Assembly: GCF_014522325.1 (NCBI RefSeq)
Contig: NZ_CP041983.1
Span: 806,001-870,000, forward strand
Direction: 5' to 3'
DNA from: Lactobacillus sp. PV012
GTDB lineage: Bacteria > Bacillota > Bacilli > Lactobacillales > Lactobacillaceae
DNA length: 64,000 nt
This document shows, one piece after another, positions 8,110 to 54,127 of this stretch (the stretch's first letter is position 1; each line of letters starts with the position of its first letter). The translations under genes and the position numbers were made by a program. A model generated the notes under the pieces. The model did no database searches. It saw nothing but the letters and a program-made list of their open reading frames with translations, and had not been told where the DNA came from.

Positions 8110-8898
8110 TTAATAATTATTTTCTTTTAAAATCTTGGCTAAGATAGAATTGAATTTATCTGGTCGCTCTGCCATAATATCATGACCACTTTGGTCAACC
8201 AAGATAAAATGAACCTTCTCATTTTGTTCATCCATCCATTTTCCAAAGTTAGCATCATAATAGGGGCTTTGAGCAGCTGCAACAATGTAAAGTGGCACCT
8301 GGGTGTGTTGAATAGTTGGACGCCAGTCATGTCTCATATGTTCTTGAAGCAAGTCCAAGTTATCCTGGCGACTAAAAGGAAAATCCTTTTTAGCGGGTTT
8401 TAATTTAGCAAAAATATTATCATCTAACCCATGTAATGTTTCGTGCACTTTAGGCACTGTTTGGGACAGTTCAAGATAATTATTTTTGTCATAATTAAGA
8501 TAACCATAAGGCCAATCTTTGTCATTTAACATATAAGGTGTTTGATCGACGACAACAGCGAGTTCAATAAGCTCAGGTTTTACATGTAATAAGTTATATA
8601 AGAGACTGCCACCCATTGAGTGACCAATAAAAGTAGCTTTAGAAATCTTTAGAAAATCTAGTAATTCAATTAAATCATGGGTTAGTTGTGCTGAAGTGTG
8701 GCCCACTTTTGTTCGTTGACTTTTACCAAAATTACGATGATCATAAGTAATTACTTGATAGCCTTGCTTAGAAAAATAGTCTATTTGACTACTCCACACT
8801 TCTTGGTAGCCACCAAATCCTGTAATGAGTACTAGAGTTTTCCCTTCTCCTGTAACTTGATAATCTAATTCAGTATTATCACTTGTTTTAAATTTCAT
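8110..8898 (-). CDS. Alpha/beta-fold hydrolase
   Basis: A 262-residue cytosolic serine hydrolase with nucleophile elbow GHSMGG (Ser94), an HG-type oxyanion region TGFGGYQEVW, the strand DHRNFGKS and the terminal histidine in SGHDIMAERPD. The fold resembles proline iminopeptidase and lactone/ester hydrolases. The substrate cannot be deduced. It is followed after 9 bases by the secreted FnIII protein gene. Confidence 0.85.
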   Translation of the reverse strand: MKFKTSDNTELDYQVTGEGKTLVLITGFGGYQEVWSSQIDYFSKQGYQVITYDHRNFGKSQRTKVGHTSAQLTHDLIELLDFLKISKATFIGHSMGGSLLYNLLHVKPELIELAVVVDQTPYMLNDKDWPYGYLNYDKNNYLELSQTVPKVHETLHGLDDNIFAKLKPAKKDFPFSRQDNLDLLQEHMRHDWRPTIQHTQVPLYIVAAAQSPYYDANFGKWMDEQNEKVHFILVDQSGHDIMAERPDKFNSILAKILKENNY

Positions 8899-27942: not shown

Positions 27943-28821
27943 CTACAAATCAATCTTGTCAATATCTAACAACCATGTAATACCAAGTGATTTTTCACCT
28001 AGGTGAGTGGCTACTACTGCGTCAAAGACCTGCATTTCAACTGGTTGATTTGGATATTTTTCTTTAAAGTGTTCAGCTACTTCTGCGGCTTGAGCTTCAT
28101 CATTAGAATTATAGATAATGAAACGTAACTTATCCTTGTAAGGTAATTCTGCAATCTTTTTATTAGCAATTTCTTCACTCTTTTTAATTGCGCGTTTTAG
28201 AGATCTAACTTTATCAAAACTTTTGATTTCATAAGTTTCAGAATCAAAAGTAAGTAAAGGCTTAATATGAAGCATAGTACCAATAAAAGCAGAGGCGTTA
28301 CTTAAGCGTCCACCTCTTACCAAATTTTGCAAATCATCTACAACAAACAAAACGCCAATGCTTGCCCGAATTTCATCTAATTTAGCAAAAATTTCTTCAA
28401 CACTGCGACCCTTTTTGGCCATTCTTGCTGCTGCTAAAGCCAAATAACCAATTGAACGTACAGTCATTCCTGAATCATAAGGATGTAAATTATATTCAGG
28501 ATGTTCTTTAGCAATTGTTAATAAGGTATTATAAAAGCCAGAAATGGCAGATGTTAAAGTAATAGTAATAATAGCTTCATAACCTTCGTCGTGGAGTTTA
28601 TCAAATAATTCTAACATTGTTCCCAAAGAAGGTTGTGAAGTTTTAGGAAATGAGGCGCCGTTACGTTGTGTTTCAAATAATTTTTCAGCAGTAATATCTA
28701 CTTTATCTAAGTAAGTTTTACCATCAATAATTACAGGAATGGGTACTACTGTAATATCATTTTCTTTTGCTTCTTGAATTGTTACATCACTGGTACTATC
28801 TGTTACAACTGCTATCTTCAA
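27943..28821 (-). CDS. DegV family fatty-acid-binding protein (FakB-like)
   Basis: This 292-residue protein has the DegV hallmarks: AVVTDSTSDV at the N-terminus, FPKTSQPSLG, SGFYNT in the ligand loop and RGGRLSNASAFIGTML. DegV proteins bind a fatty acid and present it to the kinase FakA for phospholipid synthesis. A paralogue lies at 38652-39581; two or more FakB proteins per genome is usual, with different chain specificity. Monocistronic. Confidence 0.88.
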   Translation of the reverse strand: MKIAVVTDSTSDVTIQEAKENDITVVPIPVIIDGKTYLDKVDITAEKLFETQRNGASFPKTSQPSLGTMLELFDKLHDEGYEAIITITLTSAISGFYNTLLTIAKEHPEYNLHPYDSGMTVRSIGYLALAAARMAKKGRSVEEIFAKLDEIRASIGVLFVVDDLQNLVRGGRLSNASAFIGTMLHIKPLLTFDSETYEIKSFDKVRSLKRAIKKSEEIANKKIAELPYKDKLRFIIYNSNDEAQAAEVAEHFKEKYPNQPVEMQVFDAVVATHLGEKSLGITWLLDIDKIDL

Positions 28822-28974
28822 TCTGAAAACCTGCCTTATAATATATTAGTCCGTTTAGTAGTTTAATTATAGCATACTTGAATGCTAGTCTGGTATCAAT
28901 AAGAAACTTAAGAAAATAGGGATTTTTTTAGATTAATAGTATAATAGTAAGGAAAGAAATTTTGAGGTGATTTG

Positions 28975-30645
28975 ATGGCTTATGATGGCCTTTTTATTCA
29001 TAGTTTATTAGCACAATTAGATACCGATCTTGTGGGAGGAAAGCTAACAAAGATTTATCAGCCCTTCCCTTACGACTTAGTACTAAACTTTAGAAAAGAT
29101 CGTAAAAACAAAAAACTACTTATTTCTGCTAATGCACAAAATCCACGCTTTTATATTACAAATGAAAACATTGTCAATCCTGATGTTGCCCCAACTTTTG
29201 TCATGGTACTACGTAAATACCTGGTGGGATCAGTTTTAGAAAAAATTGAACAAGTTGGAGTTGAAAGAATTGTTAATTTTTATTTTTCCAATCGTAATGA
29301 GCTGGGAGATGAAATTAAATTAGTATTATCAATTGAACTGATGGGTAAACACAGTAATGTAATTTTGTATGATGCCCATACTAATAAAATTATTGATCTA
29401 CTTAAACGAATCAATCCTGATGAAAATCGGGCACGGCTTCTCTTGCCTCACGCACCTTATGAACTTCCACCATTAAAGCCAGGAATTAATGGTTTTGAAG
29501 TTGATAAATCTAAGTTCAATGAATTAAAAAAAGAGTTTCCTACTCCTAGCGACTTCGCTCAAAATATTAACGGAGTCGATGGCGATGATCGGCGGGAGTT
29601 AGCAGGATATTTGGAAGACGACTTTTCTTATCCTTCATTTACTACCTTCTTTTCTCATTTTGATCATCCTAAAGCAACTATTTTACAAACTCCTAAACAT
29701 AAGGACCGGCTGTTTTTATACTTACCTTACCATTTAGATTTACAAATGGTGCGTACTTATCCAGAAGTAAACAGTGGCATTGAAGATTTTTATAAAGAAC
29801 AAGCCAATAAAGAATGGGTTCGCCAAAAATCAAAAAAGGTAGAAACTGTTGTTTCAAATGAGCAAAAGAAGCTCAGTAAAAAGCTAGTTAAACTTAAAAA
29901 GCAATTAAAGCAAGCAGAAAATTCTGAAGAGTATCGGATTAAGGGCGAATTATTAAACACCTATCTTCATCAAGTTAAGCCAGGAATGACGGAAATTTCC
30001 TTACCTAACTATTATGAAAATAATCAAGAATTAAAAATCAAACTGGATCCTGCTCTCTCTCCTGCACGCAATGCTCAAAAGTATTTTACCCGTTATCAAA
30101 AACTGCGTAATTCCATTAAGCATGTCAATGAACAAATTAAAATTACCAAAGAAAATTTAGCTTATTTTGATTCTATTCAAACAGCAATTGATAATGCTGA
30201 TCCACAAGATATTGATGCAATTAGTGAGGAATTAATTAATCAGGGTTATTTGAAACGTCCTCAAAATCATCAACGCAAAAAGAAAATAAATGAAAAATCA
30301 CTTAATACTTTTGAATTAAGTGATGGTAAAAAAGTGTTAGTCGGTAAAAACAATTACCAAAATGATTGGCTCACACTTAAAAAGGCTAATAAGAAGCATT
30401 ACTGGTTCCACGTTAAAAATATGCCTGGCTCGCATGTGATTTTGGAAGATGAAAATCCAAGTCCGCAAGACATTCAAGAAGCTGCAGAAATTGCAGCCTA
30501 CTACTCTAAAGGTAAAAATTCCGCTCATGTTCCAGTAGACTATGTTCAAGTTAAGAGAATTAAAAGCCTAATGGTGCAAAGCCTGGTTTTGTCATTTATA
30601 CAGGACAAAATTCAATTGAAGTTACTCCAGAAGAAGAAGTTGTAA
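28975..30645 (+). CDS. rqcH: RqcH/Rqc2 homologue (NFACT family, fibronectin-binding protein A-like) with a frameshifted C-terminus
   Basis: The product has the NFACT-N domain (GLFIHSLLAQLDTDLVGGKL), a long central coiled coil, and NFACT-R with NDWLTLKKANKKHYWFHVKN and PGSHVILED. RqcH binds split 50S subunits and adds alanine tails in ribosome quality control. ATG 28975 follows GAGGTGATTTG. The expected end KKPNGAKPGFVIYTGQ is present in the DNA, but one frame off: one more A in the A4 run at 30562-30565 would give it and a stop at 30663-30665. The deposited frame ends in SLMVQSLVLSFIQDK instead. Either a real C-terminal change or a sequencing error. Confidence 0.85.
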   Translation: MAYDGLFIHSLLAQLDTDLVGGKLTKIYQPFPYDLVLNFRKDRKNKKLLISANAQNPRFYITNENIVNPDVAPTFVMVLRKYLVGSVLEKIEQVGVERIVNFYFSNRNELGDEIKLVLSIELMGKHSNVILYDAHTNKIIDLLKRINPDENRARLLLPHAPYELPPLKPGINGFEVDKSKFNELKKEFPTPSDFAQNINGVDGDDRRELAGYLEDDFSYPSFTTFFSHFDHPKATILQTPKHKDRLFLYLPYHLDLQMVRTYPEVNSGIEDFYKEQANKEWVRQKSKKVETVVSNEQKKLSKKLVKLKKQLKQAENSEEYRIKGELLNTYLHQVKPGMTEISLPNYYENNQELKIKLDPALSPARNAQKYFTRYQKLRNSIKHVNEQIKITKENLAYFDSIQTAIDNADPQDIDAISEELINQGYLKRPQNHQRKKKINEKSLNTFELSDGKKVLVGKNNYQNDWLTLKKANKKHYWFHVKNMPGSHVILEDENPSPQDIQEAAEIAAYYSKGKNSAHVPVDYVQVKRIKSLMVQSLVLSFIQDKIQLKLLQKKKL

Positions 30646-30712: not shown

Positions 30713-33700
30713 TTATAATGGTTGCGTAGTCATCGCCATGGTTTCTAAAACCGTTAAAATATCTGCTGCAGACTGGAGACTAGATAAGACAGGAATATGA
30801 GTTTCTAAAGCTGTATCTTGAATAATAATTGCATCATGGCTAGCCGAATCAGAAAGGCTGGTCACATTAATTACCATATTAATACGATGCTGCGTGATTT
30901 TTTCCAAAATACCCTTATTTCCATCTTGTAATTTACTAATAATCCCAGTAGTAATTCCCTTTTCTGCTAAAGTTGTTGCTGTACCTTCAGTTGCTAATAA
31001 GGTAAACCCTAAGCGGTGGAATCTGGCAGCAATTTTAACAGCATCCTCTTTTTCACTATCTTTAACTGAAATAAAGACAGTCCCATAACTTGGAATAATC
31101 AAGTCACTGGCTTCGTATCCTTTGTACAAAGCGGTTGGCAATCTGACAGCTTGCCCCATTACACTTCCTGAAGTTTTCATAAGTGAATCAAAAGTATTTT
31201 CGCCATGGTATTGTAAGGATGAAAATACTGGCATTTTTACATGAATTAATGATGAAGATGGCCAAACATCATTTGTTAAATTTAATTCTGGTAAATCAGC
31301 TCCCAGTAAAACTTGCGTGGCAATTTTAACGATATTTTGATGGATAGATTTCGTTAAAAATGAAATATTATGCCCCGCATATGTCTTAATTTGTAAAACA
31401 TAGATTTGATTATTAGCAATTAAAAAATGCAGATTAACTGGCCCCCGCAATTTAAACTGCTTAATGATATTTACTGTGCTATCACGTAGTAACCGTTGCT
31501 GGGTTGAACTTAAGTTTTGAGGACGGTAAATTGCAATTGAATCTGAAGCATGGGAGCCACTTTGCTCAAAGTGTTCAATAATTCCTGGAATTGTAACATT
31601 TTCTCCATCTGAGATAGCTGTTACTTCATATTTTTTACCTTCAATAAATTTAGAAATAATTATTTCTTGTAACTCATTTTCAGTAATATATTTATTTAAA
31701 GCCGGAATATCAAAAACAACAGCTGATTTAGGCTTTTTTTGATTGTTGCTTAACCCACCGATTAAAAGTGGGAAGCCATGTTTTATAACAAATTCTTCTA
31801 CTTCCTCTGGTTGCTTAGTAGTTAAAGCTGGCACTGGACTTACATTTGCATTTTCAATTACTTTTGTTTTATCCAGCTTAAGAGTATGTTCAATATTTGG
31901 TTGGCCAATAATTTTAAGGCCATTTTTAAGCAGCGGGATTCGATAGCGATTTGCCTGTTTCCCAGAGAATTGCGTTAAGACATACTCGATGTTCTCTTTT
32001 TGTGCAACTGCGAGAATATTTTCTAAAGTAATCGGCTCAAAATAAACTCGGTCACATACATCATAAGAAGCACTAATACTTTCGGGATTATTACTAATAA
32101 TTACTGGACTTATCCCCTGCTCTTTTAATGTTTTAGCTGCGTGATAAAGCATGTAGTCAAATTCACCAGTCAGTGAAACTTGAAATGGCTTAAGTCCAAG
32201 GATTAAACATTTCTTTGCAGCTGCTAATGGTTTAATTTCATCCTGAACCCCATAAGCAGAAAATGTTGCCCTGATTTCTGGTTCTTCCAAACCAGCAGTT
32301 CCATCTACTCGAATATATGAAGGATAAATTTGCCATTGCTGAGCTAAGTCGATAATTTCATCATAAGGTTTGTTAGTTAGGTAGGCAATTAAGCGATTAG
32401 AGAAGCCGTATTTTTTAACTTTAAGCAAAAGGTTTGAAGAAAGTGGTTCTTCCTTTAGTTTTTTGGTTAAAGCAATTAAGTGATTAAATTTTTGTAAGAA
32501 GACTGGATGAATATGAGTAGCTTTTCGTAAATCCTTGTACGGGATTTCTTTAAAAATAGCAGCGACTAAGATTAGAAGGTGATTTTCCCAAGGATCAGCT
32601 AGGTCTTGCAAAATCTCCTCTTTGCTTTTTCTAAGTTCTGTTCTAACTGTCTGTAAATTATTAGTAAAGCTGGTGGTTGATTGAAATGCCTTCATAAAGG
32701 CAGCTTCAAAGTTCATCCCTTTCCCTAAAGCTGCTCCTCCAGATGTGGTTTTATTTCCTAAAGTATAGTGGTTTGTACCTGACTCTACAAAGGACCAGTA
32801 AGGCAAGCGGACATTGAAAGAATCTTTACGCGGTTCAATAGCTGCATTAAGACCAGATTGGGGATCAATTATTTCATTTAAATGATAGCCCAAAGCTATT
32901 TTCGCAACTACATAACCTACACTATATACCCCACTGCGATAGGCGAGCAAACTAGTGTGTGTAAGACGCGGTTTAACACTCAAAACCTTAAATTTAAATT
33001 CATCATTACTTTGTTTAACCGCAAAGTGGATTGACAAAGCACCATGGAAATTTAAAGCATCTGCAATTTTTTTACTATAGCGCCGTAACTGTTGCATTTG
33101 ATTATTATTACGAGTAATAACCGGAGTTACTAAAAGCGAATCTAATGAATCAATTCCAACAGGTTCAAGACTGCCTGAATTATTAATAAAACAGAAATTA
33201 CCGATTGGGTCGCGGATAACATCTAGAATTAATTCTTCAAAGTTAGAAAGATCTTCAGTAAGACGATAATTTTTGTAATTGAAATGATCTTGATCTACTT
33301 CTTTTTCATGATCAAAATATAATTTTAGTTCTTCATAATTTTTAAAAGAACGATGAATATCTGGCCGGTAACGTTGCTTTTTAACTAAAAGAAGTGGATA
33401 AGTTACTCTACTTAACTCATTTAAAATAGTCGCTTCATCTTCGATTAACCATTGACGCGTTGTTGGAATCTGATGACGATCCAAAAATTCATGAAATTTT
33501 CTTGAATCTTGTAAATCCAGACTTAAATCATTAATTCCTAATAAACTAATGTCCATGTCGGATAAAATACCATCTTTTTCCAATGCCTTAAGCAAGCGTA
33601 ATGCTGGCTTGCCACCAGCTGCTGCAAATATTGCATCTGGTTTTTCCATCCGCAAAATCCTTTTAGTAAAATCCAGTGTCATGGGTTCCAAAAAGACTTT

Positions 33701-33886
33701 TAAGTTCTTCTTCCAGTCAGTTTCAACAGTAGCTGGATTAGGATTTAACAAAACAACCTGAATATTTTCTTCTAAAAATGATTCTAAGACTTGCTCTCCC
33801 AAAATATCCATTTCTGAAACTTCGCCAATTATTGTTGGGCCAGCTCCAATAATCATTACCTTATTAAATTCATTATGTAGTGGCAT
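30713..33886 (-). CDS. carB: Carbamoyl-phosphate synthase large subunit homologue, predicted inactive (CarB-like)
   Basis: The 1057-residue length and full CarB domain order are kept: ATP-grasp 1, oligomerisation region, ATP-grasp 2 and a C-terminal MGS-like regulatory domain (about 930-1050). Key ATP-grasp residues are replaced. In half 1 the metal and carboxyphosphate site EVNPR reads SVKPR (Ser303, Lys305), the Q of the NVQ strand is His287, and the glycine-rich loop GGTGGG is absent (KKQRYRPDIHRSF). In half 2 EVNPRASR reads QIKTYAGH (Gln832, Lys834, Tyr836), the Q is His820, and the PSYVLGGR loop is lost. AISDGENVTIPGIIEHFEQS and the MGS domain are well kept. With no stop or frameshift in 1057 codons it is probably expressed, as a pseudoenzyme. 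It follows carA after 3 bases. Confidence 0.85.
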   Translation of the reverse strand: MPLHNEFNKVMIIGAGPTIIGEVSEMDILGEQVLESFLEENIQVVLLNPNPATVETDWKKNLKVFLEPMTLDFTKRILRMEKPDAIFAAAGGKPALRLLKALEKDGILSDMDISLLGINDLSLDLQDSRKFHEFLDRHQIPTTRQWLIEDEATILNELSRVTYPLLLVKKQRYRPDIHRSFKNYEELKLYFDHEKEVDQDHFNYKNYRLTEDLSNFEELILDVIRDPIGNFCFINNSGSLEPVGIDSLDSLLVTPVITRNNNQMQQLRRYSKKIADALNFHGALSIHFAVKQSNDEFKFKVLSVKPRLTHTSLLAYRSGVYSVGYVVAKIALGYHLNEIIDPQSGLNAAIEPRKDSFNVRLPYWSFVESGTNHYTLGNKTTSGGAALGKGMNFEAAFMKAFQSTTSFTNNLQTVRTELRKSKEEILQDLADPWENHLLILVAAIFKEIPYKDLRKATHIHPVFLQKFNHLIALTKKLKEEPLSSNLLLKVKKYGFSNRLIAYLTNKPYDEIIDLAQQWQIYPSYIRVDGTAGLEEPEIRATFSAYGVQDEIKPLAAAKKCLILGLKPFQVSLTGEFDYMLYHAAKTLKEQGISPVIISNNPESISASYDVCDRVYFEPITLENILAVAQKENIEYVLTQFSGKQANRYRIPLLKNGLKIIGQPNIEHTLKLDKTKVIENANVSPVPALTTKQPEEVEEFVIKHGFPLLIGGLSNNQKKPKSAVVFDIPALNKYITENELQEIIISKFIEGKKYEVTAISDGENVTIPGIIEHFEQSGSHASDSIAIYRPQNLSSTQQRLLRDSTVNIIKQFKLRGPVNLHFLIANNQIYVLQIKTYAGHNISFLTKSIHQNIVKIATQVLLGADLPELNLTNDVWPSSSLIHVKMPVFSSLQYHGENTFDSLMKTSGSVMGQAVRLPTALYKGYEASDLIIPSYGTVFISVKDSEKEDAVKIAARFHRLGFTLLATEGTATTLAEKGITTGIISKLQDGNKGILEKITQHRINMVINVTSLSDSASHDAIIIQDTALETHIPVLSSLQSAADILTVLETMAMTTQPL

Positions 33887-33889
33887 AAT

Positions 33890-34945
33890 CTACTCCATCA
33901 TTCTTACAAATTGATCATAGATACTATCAGCATCAAAATTACCAGGTGACCCTTCTGGATTAAAGGCAGTCGCAATACACTTTTCCTTTTCTAAAACGTA
34001 TCCAGCCAGTAAATCAGATTTTAAATCATAGTATACTCTAGAAAAGTTTAAAGTGATATTTTCTGGGAAAACTAATTGTCCCAGATTCATTGCAGTTTGC
34101 CAAATTCGATGATTTTGTTGATCAATTACCGGAAAGTTACTTCCATTATATGGTGGCTGCAATTCAAAAGTTTCTAAATTTAAATAGTCACTAATTGCTA
34201 AGAAGCCCAACCCAATTCCTAAAATTGGCAATTTACCGTAAAACTGGTCAAAGATGGGCGCTAAATCCTTTTTCAATTCTTCTGGATTACTTGGTCCATT
34301 AGAAAAAATGATTCCGTCAGCTCGAATATTAATTATGTCATAGATTGAGGCGTTGTACGGCAAAACGACACTATTAATCTTTCTTAAAGATAATTCACGT
34401 AATAAAGAGTGTTTTAATCCTAAGTCAATTACTGCAACAGTTTTACCAATATTAGGTGCGGCGTAAGGATTAGAAGTAGAAATTTGGGCGGTTTTATTTT
34501 TAGGTAACACCAAGGCCCGAATTTGATCAAAAGCATGCTCATCGTCTGTATCCATAATCGAGGCCTTAATTACCCGTTGTTGTTTTAATTTTTGGACTAG
34601 AGCTCTCGTATCTACCCCATAAATTCCGGGGATATTTTTTTCTTTAAGAAAATCATCTAAATCTTGAAAAGTATTACTATCAGAAATATGAAAAGCAATG
34701 TCGTTAGCGATAATTCCTTTAACTGAAGGATTAATAGATTCATAATCAATTGGATTAATACCGCTTGCTCCAATTAATGGTGTAGTAAAAGTAAGAATTT
34801 TTCCAAAATTTGCTGGGTCAGAGATTGCTTCTTGATAGCCAAAATTTGCTGTCTGAATTGCTAATTCTCCAGTTGAAGTAATTCCTGCCCCAAAGTCATG
34901 GCCACTAAAGGAAGTGCCATCTTCTAAAACTAAGTATCTTTTCAT
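33890..34945 (-). CDS. carA: Carbamoyl-phosphate synthase small subunit homologue, predicted inactive (CarA-like)
   Basis: A 351-residue protein with the CarA N-terminal domain (YLVLEDGTSFSGHDFG, TGELAIQTANFGYQEAISDP) and a GATase1 domain. The nucleophile motif GICLGHQ reads GIGLGFL (Gly245 replaces Cys), and the catalytic histidine in HPE is Asn329 (FNPEGSPG). The glutaminase triad is therefore lost. The gene begins 8 bases after the rluD stop, with no PyrR-type attenuator between them, and is followed by the carB-like gene. It is full length, so selection for some other role is likely. Confidence 0.85.
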   Translation of the reverse strand: MKRYLVLEDGTSFSGHDFGAGITSTGELAIQTANFGYQEAISDPANFGKILTFTTPLIGASGINPIDYESINPSVKGIIANDIAFHISDSNTFQDLDDFLKEKNIPGIYGVDTRALVQKLKQQRVIKASIMDTDDEHAFDQIRALVLPKNKTAQISTSNPYAAPNIGKTVAVIDLGLKHSLLRELSLRKINSVVLPYNASIYDIINIRADGIIFSNGPSNPEELKKDLAPIFDQFYGKLPILGIGLGFLAISDYLNLETFELQPPYNGSNFPVIDQQNHRIWQTAMNLGQLVFPENITLNFSRVYYDLKSDLLAGYVLEKEKCIATAFNPEGSPGNFDADSIYDQFVRMME

Positions 34946-34953
34946 TTAACTTT

Positions 34954-35859
34954 TTATCCTCGACGTAACTTCTCCAACTGCTTTTGAAAAATTTCTGGTA
35001 CATCTACACTAAATTCTAACCATTTATCAGATGTAGGTTGATAAAAGCCTAAAGTTTTCGCATGCAAAAACTGGCCGTTACCTTTAAGCGTTTTTTTAGG
35101 ACCATAGACTGGATCTCCAGCTAAGGGATGCCCAATGTATTTCATGTGTACCCTAATTTGATGAGTACGTCCAGTTTCTAAAATACACTTTACGAGCGCA
35201 TAATCTTTGAATTGTTCTAAAACTTCAAAGTGAGTTACTGCATTTTTACCGTTAGGATTAATTGCCATCTGTTTTCGGTTATTTGGATTTCGTCCAATTG
35301 GGGCATCAATTTTGCCACTTTTTGTTTTAAAATTGCCATGCACAAGAGCAAGATATTCTCTCTTATTTGTTTTAGAAGCAAGTTGTTTTTCTAAACTTTG
35401 CCTTGCATGATCGTTTTTAGCAACCATTAATAGCCCTGATGTATCTTTGTCAATTCGGTGAACAATTCCTGGACGAAAGCCTTCTTCACTATCTGCCAAA
35501 TCTTTTGTGTGATACAAAAGCCCATTAACTAAAGTATGATTAGGATGGCCCGCAGCTGGGTGAACAACCATTCCTTGAGGCTTGTTTACTACAATTACGT
35601 CATCATCTTCGTAGATGATATCTAAGTGTAAATCTTCTGGTTCTAAATTTAATGGTTCTTTTTGGGAAATCACTACTTCAATTTGATCCCCACTTTTAAC
35701 CTTATAGGAAGCTTTTTCTTTTTTAGAATTTACTAATATATTGTTATTATCAATAAGTTCTTGAACTTGGGTTCTGCTTAATTTTTCAATTTCTTTGGAT
35801 AAAACTTTATCTAACCGACCTGATTGATCGGTAATCGTTAAGCTGTGCTTTTCTTCCAT
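34954..35859 (-). CDS. rluD: RluD-family 23S rRNA pseudouridine synthase
   Basis: A 301-residue protein with an N-terminal S4 domain (GRLDKVLSKEIEKLSRTQVQ) and the pseudouridine synthase core with the catalytic aspartate in HRIDKDTSGLL and the motif GRTHQIRVHMKYIGHPL. ATG 35859 lies behind AAGGAT; the longer frame has no ribosome site. In lactobacilli rluD normally sits between lspA and pyrR; here pyrR is missing and carA follows directly. Confidence 0.9.
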   Translation of the reverse strand: MEEKHSLTITDQSGRLDKVLSKEIEKLSRTQVQELIDNNNILVNSKKEKASYKVKSGDQIEVVISQKEPLNLEPEDLHLDIIYEDDDVIVVNKPQGMVVHPAAGHPNHTLVNGLLYHTKDLADSEEGFRPGIVHRIDKDTSGLLMVAKNDHARQSLEKQLASKTNKREYLALVHGNFKTKSGKIDAPIGRNPNNRKQMAINPNGKNAVTHFEVLEQFKDYALVKCILETGRTHQIRVHMKYIGHPLAGDPVYGPKKTLKGNGQFLHAKTLGFYQPTSDKWLEFSVDVPEIFQKQLEKLRRG

Positions 35860-35934
35860 TTCTTTAATCCTTATAATTTTAACCTGTTTATTCCTGTATA
35901 AGTTTAGCACATTCTTAGAAAAAATCGTAATAAG

Positions 35935-35966: not shown

Positions 35967-36443
35967 TTATTTTGTTTTCTTTTTGTCTTCTAAAAAAATT
36001 AAATAGATAAAAACTAACAACAAACCAACACTAATTGCCATGTCAGCAATATTAAAAATATTGAAATTGATGAAATCTAGCTGAAACATATCTACTACAT
36101 AATGCATTTGTAGCCGATCCATGAAGTTCCCAATTACCCCACCAAAAATAAGTGCTAATCCAATATCAAAAGTAATATTTTGATATTTTAAATTAAAAAG
36201 GTAATAAATTACTACAATGCTAGCAATTAAAGTGATAATATAGAAAATCCACATTTTTCCTGCCAGTAGATTCCAAGCAGCGCCGTTGTTTTGTAAATAA
36301 TTAAAAGAAAATACGCCAGGAAGGACTTCTCTTGTTTCACCAACTCGAAAATTTGTTTTAATATAGTACTTTAAACTTTGATCAGCAAAAATTACCGCAA
36401 AGGAAATTAATAAATACCAAGCTTGTTTAAGTTGCTTACCCAT
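35967..36443 (-). CDS. lspA: Lipoprotein signal peptidase (signal peptidase II)
   Basis: A 158-residue protein with four membrane helices and the two catalytic aspartates in GNFMDRLQMHYVVD and FNIADMAIS. It removes signal peptides from prolipoproteins at the outer face of the membrane. The start is one base past the fhs stop, so the two are co-transcribed. Confidence 0.93.
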   Translation of the reverse strand: MGKQLKQAWYLLISFAVIFADQSLKYYIKTNFRVGETREVLPGVFSFNYLQNNGAAWNLLAGKMWIFYIITLIASIVVIYYLFNLKYQNITFDIGLALIFGGVIGNFMDRLQMHYVVDMFQLDFINFNIFNIADMAISVGLLLVFIYLIFLEDKKKTK

Positions 36444-36444
36444 T

Positions 36445-38118
36445 TTAGAATAATCCTGAAATTTTACCGTTGTTATCTACGTCGATATCTAAAGCTGCTG
36501 GATGTTTAGGAAGACCTGGCATATCAAGAATTGATCCAGTTGCTACTACAATAAAGCCAGCTCCATTTTTAAGAGCTAAATCCTTCACATGAAGAGTAAA
36601 GTTTTCAGGAGCACCTAATTGTTTCTTATCATCAGTAAAGGAAGCTTGAGTTTTAGCAATGATTACTGGAAGATGGTCCTTGTTCATCTTTTTAATTTCT
36701 TTTAATTGGTCTTCAGCCTTATCGCTGTATTCGATATTACTTGCACCATAAATATTTTTGGCAATTTTTTCAATTTTTGTCTTAATATCATCATCTTCAC
36801 GATAAATAGAAGCAAAGTTGCCACCCTTTTCAGTTAGTTCTACTAACTTTTCAGCTGCTTTAACTCCACCCTTTGAGCCTTCATCATGGTAAGAAACTAC
36901 TTCACAAGTAAATCCTTCTTGTTCAACTAGTTCCTTGAGGCGGTTTAACTCTGCATCTGTATCAGTAGCAAACTTATTAATTACTACCATAACAGGCATG
37001 CCGTACTTAGCCATGTTAGTCATATGACGTTTCAAGTTTGCAAAACCTTTTTCTAAAGCTTCAAGATTTTCTTCATCTAAGTGATCAGTAGTCTTTTCAG
37101 CTTGGTATTTAAGTGCACGAACAGTAGCTACTACAGCAACAGCATCTGGACGCTTTTCCAAGTGTGTTGAAACAAAGTCCATGAATTTTTGTCCACCCAA
37201 ATCAGCTCCAAAGCCAGCTTCAGTTAAGACATAGTCACTCAAATGAAGAGCTAAATTAGTTGCAATAATTGAATTGGCTCCATGAGCGATATTAGCAAAT
37301 GGTCCACCGTGGACTAAAGCAGGAGTATGTTCTAATGTTTGAACAAGGTTTGGCTTTAAAGCATTTGAGAGCAAGGCAGCAATTGCTCCTTCAAAACCTA
37401 AATCTTTAACAAAAATTGGTTCGTCTTTAGTTGAGAAACCTACTAACATATTACCGATACGACTCTTTAAGTCATCGATATCTTGGGCTAAGCAAAGAAT
37501 AGCCATTAATTCATTAGCTACAGTAATTGCAAATGAACTTTCGTGTTCAATACCATTAAAACGAGAACCTTCTCCGACGGTAACTTTTCTTAGAGTACGG
37601 TCGTTTACGTCAATTCCACGCTTTAATAAAATACGGTTTGGATCTAAATCTAAACTATTATCTTGGTAAATATAGTTATCTACTAAAGCAGCTAAAGTAT
37701 CAATCGCACTAGTTAAGGCGTGCATATCCCCAGTAAAGTGGAGGTTAATGTCTTCCATAGGAATAATTTGCGCATATCCTCCACCTGTAGCACCACCCTT
37801 TAATCCAAATACTGGACCCATTGAAGGTTCACGTAATGCAATTAAGGTATCTTTATGAAGTTGATTTTTAATTGCATCCCCTAAACCAATGGTAATAGTT
37901 GATTTACCTTCGCCAGCAGGTGTTGGTGAAATAGAAGTTACTAAAATTAATTTTCCTAACTTATCATTTTTTTGAACGCGATTAATTGCTTCCCATTTAA
38001 TCTTTGCTTTATCAGCACCATAAGGTTCAATATCAGCAGCTGATAAATTTATTTTTTCTGCAATTTCAGCAATTGGGTTAGCAGTAGTTTTTTGTGCAAT
38101 TTTAATATCTGATTCCAT
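36445..38118 (-). CDS. fhs: Formate-tetrahydrofolate ligase
   Basis: A 557-residue enzyme with the FTHFS P-loop [17 protein letters not shown] near residue 65 and signatures [20 protein letters not shown] and [11 protein letters not shown]. It makes 10-formyl-tetrahydrofolate from formate and ATP for purine and initiator-tRNA formylation. Upstream of it is a 111-residue membrane protein 17 bases away; lspA follows. Confidence 0.95.
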
Positions 38119-38651: not shown

Positions 38652-39581
38652 ATGAAAATTGGTGTCTTAACAGATAGTTCTGCGTATTTAACTCCTCAGC
38701 AATGTGCTGATAACGGAATTAAGGTTATTCCAATACCAATCATTTGGAATAAACAAGTTTACCACGATATGGTAAATATTGGTTTTCATGAATTTTACGA
38801 AAAACTAGCAACAGCCTCCACTTTACCTTCTACTTCTCAGCCTTCTATTGGAGATATTCAAAAGTATGTTGATTCTTATGTAGAAGCTGGCTATACTGAT
38901 TTGATTATCGTTACTATTTCAAGTGGACTTTCCGGTTTTTATGATAATGTTTTATCAATTGCTAAGACTGAAAAACGAATCAATATTCATCCCTTTGATT
39001 CAAAAATAACCTGTGCTGGGCAAGCAAATGCTGCTTTATTAGCTGGAAAACTTGTTAAAAAAGGTGCAGACATTGATCTAATCATGCATGACCTCGAAGA
39101 CTTACGCAATACAACCGATGTTCGTTTTGTAGTGGATAACTTGCAACACTTAAAGCGGACGGGTCGCCTATCAAACGCTGCTAGTTTCGTAGGTTCCTTA
39201 TTGAGAATAACCCCAATTCTTTCAATGGATGTTCAAGACAAAGGAAAAATTTCTGCAATTTCTAAAGAAAGAAAATACCAACGTGCTTATAACAGAATTC
39301 AGCAAGATTTTACTAAATTAATTACTGATCTTCCCTATCCAGTTCAACTAACAATTTTTCACGCAGATGATATTGAAAGAGAGACCGCTTGGCTTGAAGA
39401 TTACGAAGAAAAGTTTCCGCAAGTCGAAATTAACTCAAGTATCATTGGCCCAGTAGTAGGAACCCACGTGGGACAACATACCATTGCAATGATTTGGAGT
39501 CGTAATATTAACTCTTACTTTGACCAAGATGGTCAACCACTACCTGCTAGTGAAATTCACTCACCAATTGTTGAAGACTAA
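38652..39581 (+). CDS. DegV family fatty-acid-binding protein, second paralogue
   Basis: A 309-residue protein with GVLTDSSAYL at the N-terminus, LPSTSQPSIGD, SGLSGFYDNV and RTGRLSNAASFVGSLLRI, so a FakB-type protein. It is distinct from the copy at 27943-28821 (about one third identical by eye). AAGGGAAGG precedes ATG. It ends in its own terminator. Confidence 0.88.
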   Translation: MKIGVLTDSSAYLTPQQCADNGIKVIPIPIIWNKQVYHDMVNIGFHEFYEKLATASTLPSTSQPSIGDIQKYVDSYVEAGYTDLIIVTISSGLSGFYDNVLSIAKTEKRINIHPFDSKITCAGQANAALLAGKLVKKGADIDLIMHDLEDLRNTTDVRFVVDNLQHLKRTGRLSNAASFVGSLLRITPILSMDVQDKGKISAISKERKYQRAYNRIQQDFTKLITDLPYPVQLTIFHADDIERETAWLEDYEEKFPQVEINSSIIGPVVGTHVGQHTIAMIWSRNINSYFDQDGQPLPASEIHSPIVED

Positions 39582-53752: not shown

Positions 53753-54127
53753 ACCATACAAGTTTCTATAAGCCACGTTTTGTTCCAACAAAGCTTGGCA
53801 AACTTTGTTTTCAGCAATCATCTATCTCTACTATGTAGTCTCACCCATCGTTCATTTCCTTAGGTGAAAACGCCCCTACCAAATTTGGGTTGCTCACTTG
53901 CAGGGTTTACCTCGTTCCACCAACAAAATTTCTTTTGTTGCTCCGTCACTGTGGCACTTTCAGGATATTCACGCATGTCTAACAGATTTAGCGCTTTTTC
54001 CGCCATGATTTTTATAAAATCCCTCAGCTTATTGGGCTGAGTACAAACACTACGAGCATCGCAGCTCGTGTGAGCGTGGACTTTCCTCAGCTAGCTCTTG
54101 GCTAACCGCGATTGCTCAAAACTTGCA
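53753..54127 (-). ncRNA. rnpB: RNase P RNA (type B)
   Basis: On the minus strand the RNA opens with the P4-flanking consensus GAGGAAAGTCCACGCTC near 54090 and carries the universally conserved downstream stretches. It ends with AGGCTTATAGAAACTTG before the terminator. Length of about 375 bases and the Gram-positive gene order (rRNA methyltransferase, rnpB, gpsB) fit. A TATAAT at 54134-54139 (minus strand) gives a transcript start near 54127. Ends are approximate. Confidence 0.92.

Follow-up and report, generated by a model that had tools for sequence, protein, structure and literature searches.

Why would a bacterium keep a complete gene pair for carbamoyl-phosphate synthase (CPS) once the residues needed for catalysis have gone? 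The question is raised by a 64,000-nucleotide stretch of the Lactobacillus sp. PV012 genome (contig NZ_CP041983.1, positions 806,001 to 870,000 of the forward strand; hereafter the window), in which a sequence-only reading had proposed carA and carB genes encoding a non-catalytic complex. We refer to the two proteins as CarA′ and CarB′, and to copies elsewhere that have likewise lost catalytic residues as dead. Alignments, structure prediction, substitution rates and genome searches point to a probable pseudoenzyme that has been kept across the genus.

Loss of the catalytic residues

The pair and its altered sites lie in the window as follows.

33890–34945, minus strand: CarA′, glutaminase-like CPS small subunit without catalytic residues, 351 residues (open reading frame; Pfam CPSase_sm_chain and GATase)
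34211–34213, minus strand: Gly245, replacing the nucleophile Cys269 of CarA (alignment)
33959–33961, minus strand: Asn329, replacing the catalytic His353 of CarA (alignment)
30713–33886, minus strand: CarB′, CPS large subunit without catalytic residues, 1057 residues (open reading frame, Pfam, alignment, AlphaFold2 model)
32675–33886, minus strand: N-terminal ATP-grasp half of CarB′, residues 1–404 (16% of columns fixed over 91 rows)
32966–32980, minus strand: former N-site Mg2+ motif of CarB′, now SVKPR, residues 303–307 (open reading frame, alignment)
31112–32236, minus strand: C-terminal ATP-grasp half of CarB′, residues 551–925, E. coli 553–933 (alignment)
31379–31393, minus strand: former C-site Mg2+ motif of CarB′, now QIKTY, residues 832–836 (Q832 and K834 fixed in 91/91 rows)
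30725–31111, minus strand: MGS-like allosteric domain of CarB′, residues 926–1054 (Pfam; positions of the uridine or inosine monophosphate (UMP/IMP) site intact)

Residues are numbered after E. coli K-12 CarAB, by alignment, unless window numbering is given, and their roles are those established for the E. coli enzyme. The families compared were drawn from the best 120 listed matches per search. For CarB′, 90 relatives are listed at 47–93% identity before a drop to 30%, where ordinary CarB begins; the step is smaller for CarA′, with 55–96% among the listed matches, one Holzapfeliella protein at 52%, and then about 43% (full-length). Together with the window proteins this gives 105 CarA′ rows (104 relatives) and 91 CarB′ rows.

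In CarA′ of the window the replacements C269 to G245 and H353 to N329 are accompanied by H272 to F248, Q273 to L249, Q310 to M286 and H312 to L288; K202 and E355 are retained. C269G, Q273L and H353N each occur in 105/105 rows of the family, and ten canonical CarA controls have Cys269 and Gln273 without exception and His353 in nine. Both ATP-grasp sites of CarB′ are affected. The N-site of the window protein has lost R129 (now S), R169 (V), G175 (R), G176 (P), H243 (D), Q285 (H287), E299 (S303) and N301 (K305), and the C-site D753 (S), E761 (K), Q829 (H820), E841 (Q832), N843 (K834), R845 (Y836) and R848 (H839), with R715 falling in a gap, a shortened loop, in this and all 91 rows. Across the family Q285H is found in 91/91 rows, E299 and H243 are replaced in every row, as are R129 and R169 (by K in one row each), and N301 is replaced in 88 (K in 71, R in 12) and retained in three. 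At the C-site D753S, E761K, E841Q, N843K and R848H are found in 91/91, R845Y in 90, and Q829 has become H in 88 and T in three. Misalignment is an unlikely cause of these apparent losses, because the 25 canonical CarB rows within the same alignment all retain their ligands.

The residues by which a catalytic CPS is recognised in sequence, the Cys and His of CarA and the Gln, Glu and Asn Mg2+ ligands of both ATP-grasp sites, are lacking. Gly245, Asn329, the change of both EVNPR motifs to SVKPR and QIKTY, and the Gln-to-His changes at 287 and 820 had all been pointed out by the sequence-only reading and are confirmed by alignment to the E. coli subunits, with no intact catalytic residues seen elsewhere in the alignment. 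Its statement that every catalytic site was replaced is slightly too strong: nearly all ligands are gone, but E215 (N-site) is retained in 90/91 rows and H788 (C-site) in 91/91, so the sites are incompletely erased.

Both reading frames are complete and lie 3 bp apart, as had been described, and the CPS domain order is kept, with Pfam small-chain, GATase, pre-ATP-grasp, ATP-grasp, oligomerisation and MGS domains. The PRK models of NCBIfam name both proteins CPS subunits with scores above the model cut-offs; CarA′ lies under the equivalog cut-off of TIGR01368 (260.9 against 307.35 bits) and CarB′ under that of TIGR01369 (612.8 against 1027 bits). AlphaFold2 predicts CarB′ with a local confidence score (pLDDT) of 88.9 and a predicted template modelling score (pTM) of 0.90, and CarA′ with values of 82.7 and 0.82; the top Foldseek match of the CarB′ model in the PDB is E. 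coli CPS (1c30_A, TM score 0.89). Structure alignments comprised 74 rows (A1) and 59 rows (A2). The good preservation of the MGS-like domain, also remarked upon earlier, extends to the presumed UMP/IMP site, where S948, K954, T974, T977, K993 and N1015 are unchanged in 91/91 CarB′ rows.

By codon comparison, CarA′ and CarB′ are under strong purifying selection. The ratio of nonsynonymous to synonymous substitution rates (dN/dS), calculated for genome pairs by the method of Nei and Gojobori (NG86), is 0.010 for CarA′ and 0.021 for CarB′ between genomes G148 and G124, where canonical CarA, CarB, pyrB and pyrC give 0.028, 0.026, 0.027 and 0.038. Ratios in other close pairs, several of which have a dS above 1, are 0.010–0.040 (CarA′) and 0.025–0.048 (CarB′); the CarB′ value of 0.137 for L006/L008 is meaningless at a dS of 0.003, and for L046/L047 dS is undefined for CarB′. 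A ratio near 1, or stops in relatives, would have undermined the sequence-only reading; ratios in close pairs are mostly 0.01–0.05, and none of the CarB′ matches from the genus search is interrupted by a stop (in the draft G215 CarB′ is split over two frames). Decay of the pair is thus spoken against by dN/dS and by its genus-wide retention. With catalytic residues gone, and predicted fold and purifying selection retained, the pair bears the marks of a pseudoenzyme.

Distribution and history of the site

In the genus search, matches of at least 45% identity were called CarB′, and genomes 90% complete with at most 5% contamination were considered good. CarB′ is found in 74 of 75 genus genomes, the sole miss being 59% complete, and in 60/60 good Lactobacillus genomes. 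The dead pair, earlier framed as a pseudoenzyme at a single locus, is therefore real but genus-wide instead of a local oddity. Of the 60, 45 have canonical CarB at full length, 13 show none, and in the remaining two the canonical pyr genes look damaged while CarB′ is open, G250 having a rearranged carB and G208 a carB fragment with a stop, plus a further stop in its match to PF02729 (aspartate and ornithine carbamoyltransferases). No PF02729 match was found in eight of the 60 good genomes, the window genome included, and CarB′ is present in all eight. Drafts may miss genes, which is unlikely throughout for eight genomes at 96–99% completeness, and it follows that CarA′B′ is not kept to supply carbamoyl phosphate to either carbamoyltransferase. 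Neither could we find a second carAB in the window genome (1.54 Mb), where the other GATase match is an 86-residue partial one at 37%, and a working copy elsewhere in that genome was rejected as an explanation. The canonical pyr operon of G124 (L068; gasseri/johnsonii-like) contains two pyrR genes, at 1081–1617 and 8291–8833, which are 68% identical; the first precedes pyrB and the second follows carB, an arrangement that L069 seems to share.

The neighbours of the pair in the window are the following.

34954–35910, minus strand: rluD, directly upstream of carA′ (syntenic)
35967–36443, minus strand: lspA (syntenic)
36445–38118, minus strand: fhs (formate–tetrahydrofolate ligase), heading the presumed run fhs-lspA-rluD-carA′-carB′
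28972–30645, plus strand: rqcH/fbpA-like gene, convergent with carB′, at the far edge of the site that holds the pyr operon in other genera

This order is widely conserved. In 39 of 44 loci (a few counted twice) carA′ is immediately preceded by rluD. Of the other five, three (L013, L039 and L043) are cut short by a contig edge, and in L010 and L012, which belong to other genera, uraA intervenes. All nine long loci show fhs-lspA-rluD-carA′-carB′, and a convergent rqcH follows carB′ wherever the sequence reaches, with an extra gene between them in L081 and in L. delbrueckii, L. equicursoris and a relative (L040–L042; 447 residues in L040 and L042). Further out, the window has two DegV-like paralogues, one on each flank (27943–28821 and 38652–39581). 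An Rfam scan of the window found no PyrR RNA leader; only RNase P reached the gathering score, as a bacterial class B RNA on the minus strand at 53764–54123.

We inspected the site between rluD and rqcH in 39 genera (g29 was not reached); g21 is cut by a contig end, leaving 38 readable, of which 23 have carA/carB with residues lost, four a canonical operon and 11 none. The canonical operon, in genera g12, g13, g26 and g32, stands beside rqcH on this side with catalytic sites intact, and consists of pyrB-pyrC-carA-carB with pyrD, pyrF or pyrE (rluD is visible in g13 only). It is taken as the older arrangement of the site; the gene order in Bacillus is similar. Dead carA/carB in other genera often follow pyrR, and uracil permease is also a neighbour: two sister genera (L081, L082) have lspA-rluD-(pyrR)-uraA-carA′-carB′. 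A PyrR RNA element was found in four of ten sources, of which L074, L081 and L082 have it ahead of dead copies and L069 is a canonical control. The sequence-only reading had linked the pair to RluD and translation genes, a partnership that this comparison does not support, since lspA-rluD also precedes pyr genes in other genera and the neighbours of dead copies there are pyrR and uracil permease.

The losses themselves recur across genera. Among 33 CarA at the site, Gly269 is found in 32 and His353 in none; among 32 CarB, E841 together with N843 is found in none and the N-site is intact in one (CarB rows under 700 residues, L106 and L111, are excluded, and L104 has no CarA row). The CarA exception, L093 (G033), has the Cys but neither His353 nor the CarB metal ligands, possibly through gene conversion or an independent history; L119 (G021), with a whole CarB N-site, no C-site and no CarA Cys, is possibly a partly active intermediate. 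CarB at the site is short in 15 of 23 genera, although reading frames at these loci were started at the first ATG and some are too short (L132: 730 residues, against 854 in the database). Among the best 120 listed matches, 66 are under 900 residues; these short relatives (771–862 residues) are missing MGS together with part of the second ATP-grasp domain and, set against a reference of 15 rows out of 54 long ones, carry R169K and E299K/R in 66/66 and R303Y/F in 65/66. Similar replacements thus appear in opposite halves, K/R299 and Y/F303 at the N-site of short forms such as L132, and K834 and Y836 at the C-site of Lactobacillus CarB′. In a tree of full-length CarB copies, without short forms and without L098 and L101, 17 dead rows fall on one side of a branch (support 97/99, with a long-branch warning); the dead CarA rows also do so (48/90; tree without L098, L101, L124, L136, L077, L085, L086, L140, L137, L138 and L135). 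One origin for all dead copies is possible on these trees.

A 100% match between CarB′ of G038 and Lactiplantibacillus plajomi identifies genus g38 as Lactiplantibacillus. All 21 g38 genomes have a PyrR, at least 83% identical to that of G038, 33–42 bp upstream of a CarA′ that is 93–100% identical to the G038 protein, in which Gly269 is confirmed; each also has a second PyrR (about 65%) elsewhere, the two PyrR of G038 being 64% identical to each other. In L. plantarum itself, pyrR1 is lp_2704 and pyrR2 is lp_1782 (PMC7911632). The g38 pyrR beside CarA′ is probably PyrR2 (lp_1782), judged by genus, copy number and similarity. Such a unit, with pyrR directly upstream of dead carA at this site in 21/21 genomes, is not seen in the window: no true PyrR was found in the window genome, and the Lactobacillus loci inspected have no pyrR at the site. 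Moreover, CarB′ of G038 is short and without the MGS domain, unlike that of Lactobacillus. PyrR2 of L. plantarum reportedly mediates control of the pyr genes by inorganic carbon.

Possible function and alternatives

On balance we favour a reading of CarA′B′ as a dead CPS complex, repurposed as a non-catalytic, nucleotide-responsive regulator. It would have stayed behind at the former pyr-operon site when its role in synthesis was lost or taken over elsewhere, and its subunits would still pair as in CPS. The MGS domain may bind a nucleotide such as UMP or IMP, and binding could shift the remodelled C-terminal ATP-grasp half, in which fixed Lys, His and Tyr residues replace the Mg-ATP site and may hold a metal-free anionic ligand; the output would be contact with a protein or an RNA, through which pyrimidine or nucleotide homeostasis is tuned. 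The presence of pyr genes, pyrR, the PyrR RNA element or uracil permease at this site in other genera lends support at the level of sequence. The earlier idea of a retained, non-catalytic sensor complex holds up on residue loss, purifying selection and the MGS domain as the best kept part across the genus, but its specific link to RluD or translation is not supported.

Over the 91 CarB′ rows, fixed columns make up 16% of the N-half, 5% of the oligomerisation domain, 26% of the C-half and 35% of MGS. Mean pairwise identities rank the domains in reverse in the two families, MGS being the most conserved in CarB′ (N-half.54, oligomerisation.42, C-half.58, MGS.68) and the least in canonical CarB (.80,.52,.72 and.49), although these are ten hand-picked rows of 91 dead and ten of 25 canonical ones, and the sets differ in depth, so that identity levels are not directly comparable. 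In the C-half 18 positions have switched to another fixed residue and 40 are newly fixed, S745, K752, Q832, K834, Y836 and H839 among them; in the N-half conservation has gone at 96 positions invariant among canonical rows.

Apart from the limits of that comparison, several observations weigh against a nucleotide-responsive regulator. At close range the N-half is about as constrained as MGS, and more so in one pair: dN/dS for N-half, MGS and C-half is 0.010, 0.017 and 0.024 in G148/G124, and 0.032, 0.026 and 0.056 in L. taiwanensis/L. johnsonii. Over the longer distance of L. taiwanensis/L. rodentium (CarA′ 0.127, CarB′ 0.182; rluD 0.136, fhs 0.108, rqcH 0.113, lspA 0.221) CarB′ evolves somewhat faster than most neighbours, yet far from neutrally; L045/L046 gave 0.07 for both CarA′ and CarB′. 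MGS Lys positions are altered in L084, L086, L134, L135, L093 and L119, and, as the short forms have no MGS at all, nucleotide sensing by that domain cannot be a function common to all dead forms. The PyrR RNA element was not found in six of the ten sources (L132, L113, L084, L119, L105 and L127), and true PyrR not in seven of the 16 genomes searched (the window genome, G220, G232, G234, G235, G240 and G267), where matches were limited to phosphoribosyltransferases 22–28% identical and a short 37% stretch in G267. Finally, the 18 switched and fixed positions could equally mark a new enzyme.

Uracil permease, too, had no match in G235 and G240. PyrR, uracil permease, aspartate carbamoyltransferase and canonical CPS were each rejected as the general target in Lactobacillus, as for every one of them there are genomes with CarB′ in which it was not found.

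A neofunctionalised enzyme, with its new active site in the C-terminal ATP-grasp half and the N-half and CarA′ as scaffold, would account for the 18 switched and 40 newly fixed positions and for the retention of H788; with E299, E841 and R715 absent in all 91 rows, however, Mg-ATP chemistry of the ATP-grasp kind looks impossible on the accepted mechanism, and it is MGS, not the C-half, that is most conserved across the family, so we regard such an enzyme as unlikely. Less likely still is a structural partner that stabilises or assembles another enzyme. The predicted fold is retained whole, and the pyrimidine pathway offers a precedent in the inactive dihydroorotase of Pseudomonas aspartate carbamoyltransferase (PMC6022934), but with PF02729 unmatched in eight of 60 good genomes and full-length canonical CarB missing from 15, the partner would need to be something universal.

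A weak enzyme forming carbamoyl phosphate or carbamate by unusual chemistry would fit the retained fold, the names given by the PRK models and the example of human CPS1, which works without the small-subunit Cys. It is nonetheless very improbable, as the Glu ligand is gone at both ATP sites in 91/91 rows and in eight of 60 genomes no carbamoyltransferase domain was found that could consume the product. A decaying pseudogene, or an artefact of annotation or sequencing, is hardly credible: the split frame in G215 and the eroded N-half speak for it, but the absence of stops from the genus search, the low dN/dS of close pairs and the conserved synteny stand against it.

The regulatory reading may be taken further, as a speculation that we hold with more reserve. 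Dead CPS at the old pyr site might read inorganic carbon, nucleotide or carbamoyl-phosphate status, pairing with an adjacent PyrR in many genera and acting independently of PyrR, and universally, in Lactobacillus. The PyrR2 phenotype may then belong partly to a PyrR2-CarA′B′ unit, and Lys in place of metal ligands, as in K834 of the Lactobacillus C-site and K/R299 of all 66 short forms, could be a repeated route to a sensing pocket.

Related systems and implications

CarA′B′ resembles bacterial CarAB/PyrAaAb (E. coli 1bxr, 1c30) in its two subunits, domain order, predicted fold and MGS positions, and differs in having other residues, in many cases a single fixed one, in place of the nucleophile Cys, the His and both sets of ATP-grasp metal ligands. 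Human CPS1 likewise has a small-subunit-like domain without the Cys nucleophile; it retains working ATP-grasp sites and still makes carbamoyl phosphate, whereas in CarB′ neither site has its metal ligands any longer. The pseudo-dihydroorotases of Pseudomonas aspartate carbamoyltransferase and yeast URA2 are likewise dead enzymes of the pyrimidine pathway kept for a non-catalytic role (PMC6022934, PMC6245113), although they are bound to an active partner enzyme and the pathway partners of CarA′B′ can be absent. In the L. acidophilus complex a carbamoyl phosphate synthetase, which may or may not be this gene, has been described as conserved near some termini (PMC6099100). Among the open-access papers that our searches listed, we found no statement that these CarA′ and CarB′ proteins are inactive, and prior notice is possible.

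The listed relatives are named carbamoyl-phosphate synthase in the databases. Metabolic models of Lactobacillus, also for species without a carbamoyltransferase, may therefore credit CarA′B′ with a reaction that the present evidence says is impossible. It is unusual for a dead complex of two subunits and 1400 residues to be more universal, in a major commensal genus, than the active paralogue. The finding also opens to experiment the old problem, raised by the PyrR2 and high-CO2-requiring phenotypes, of how lactobacilli sense CO2 and pyrimidine status.

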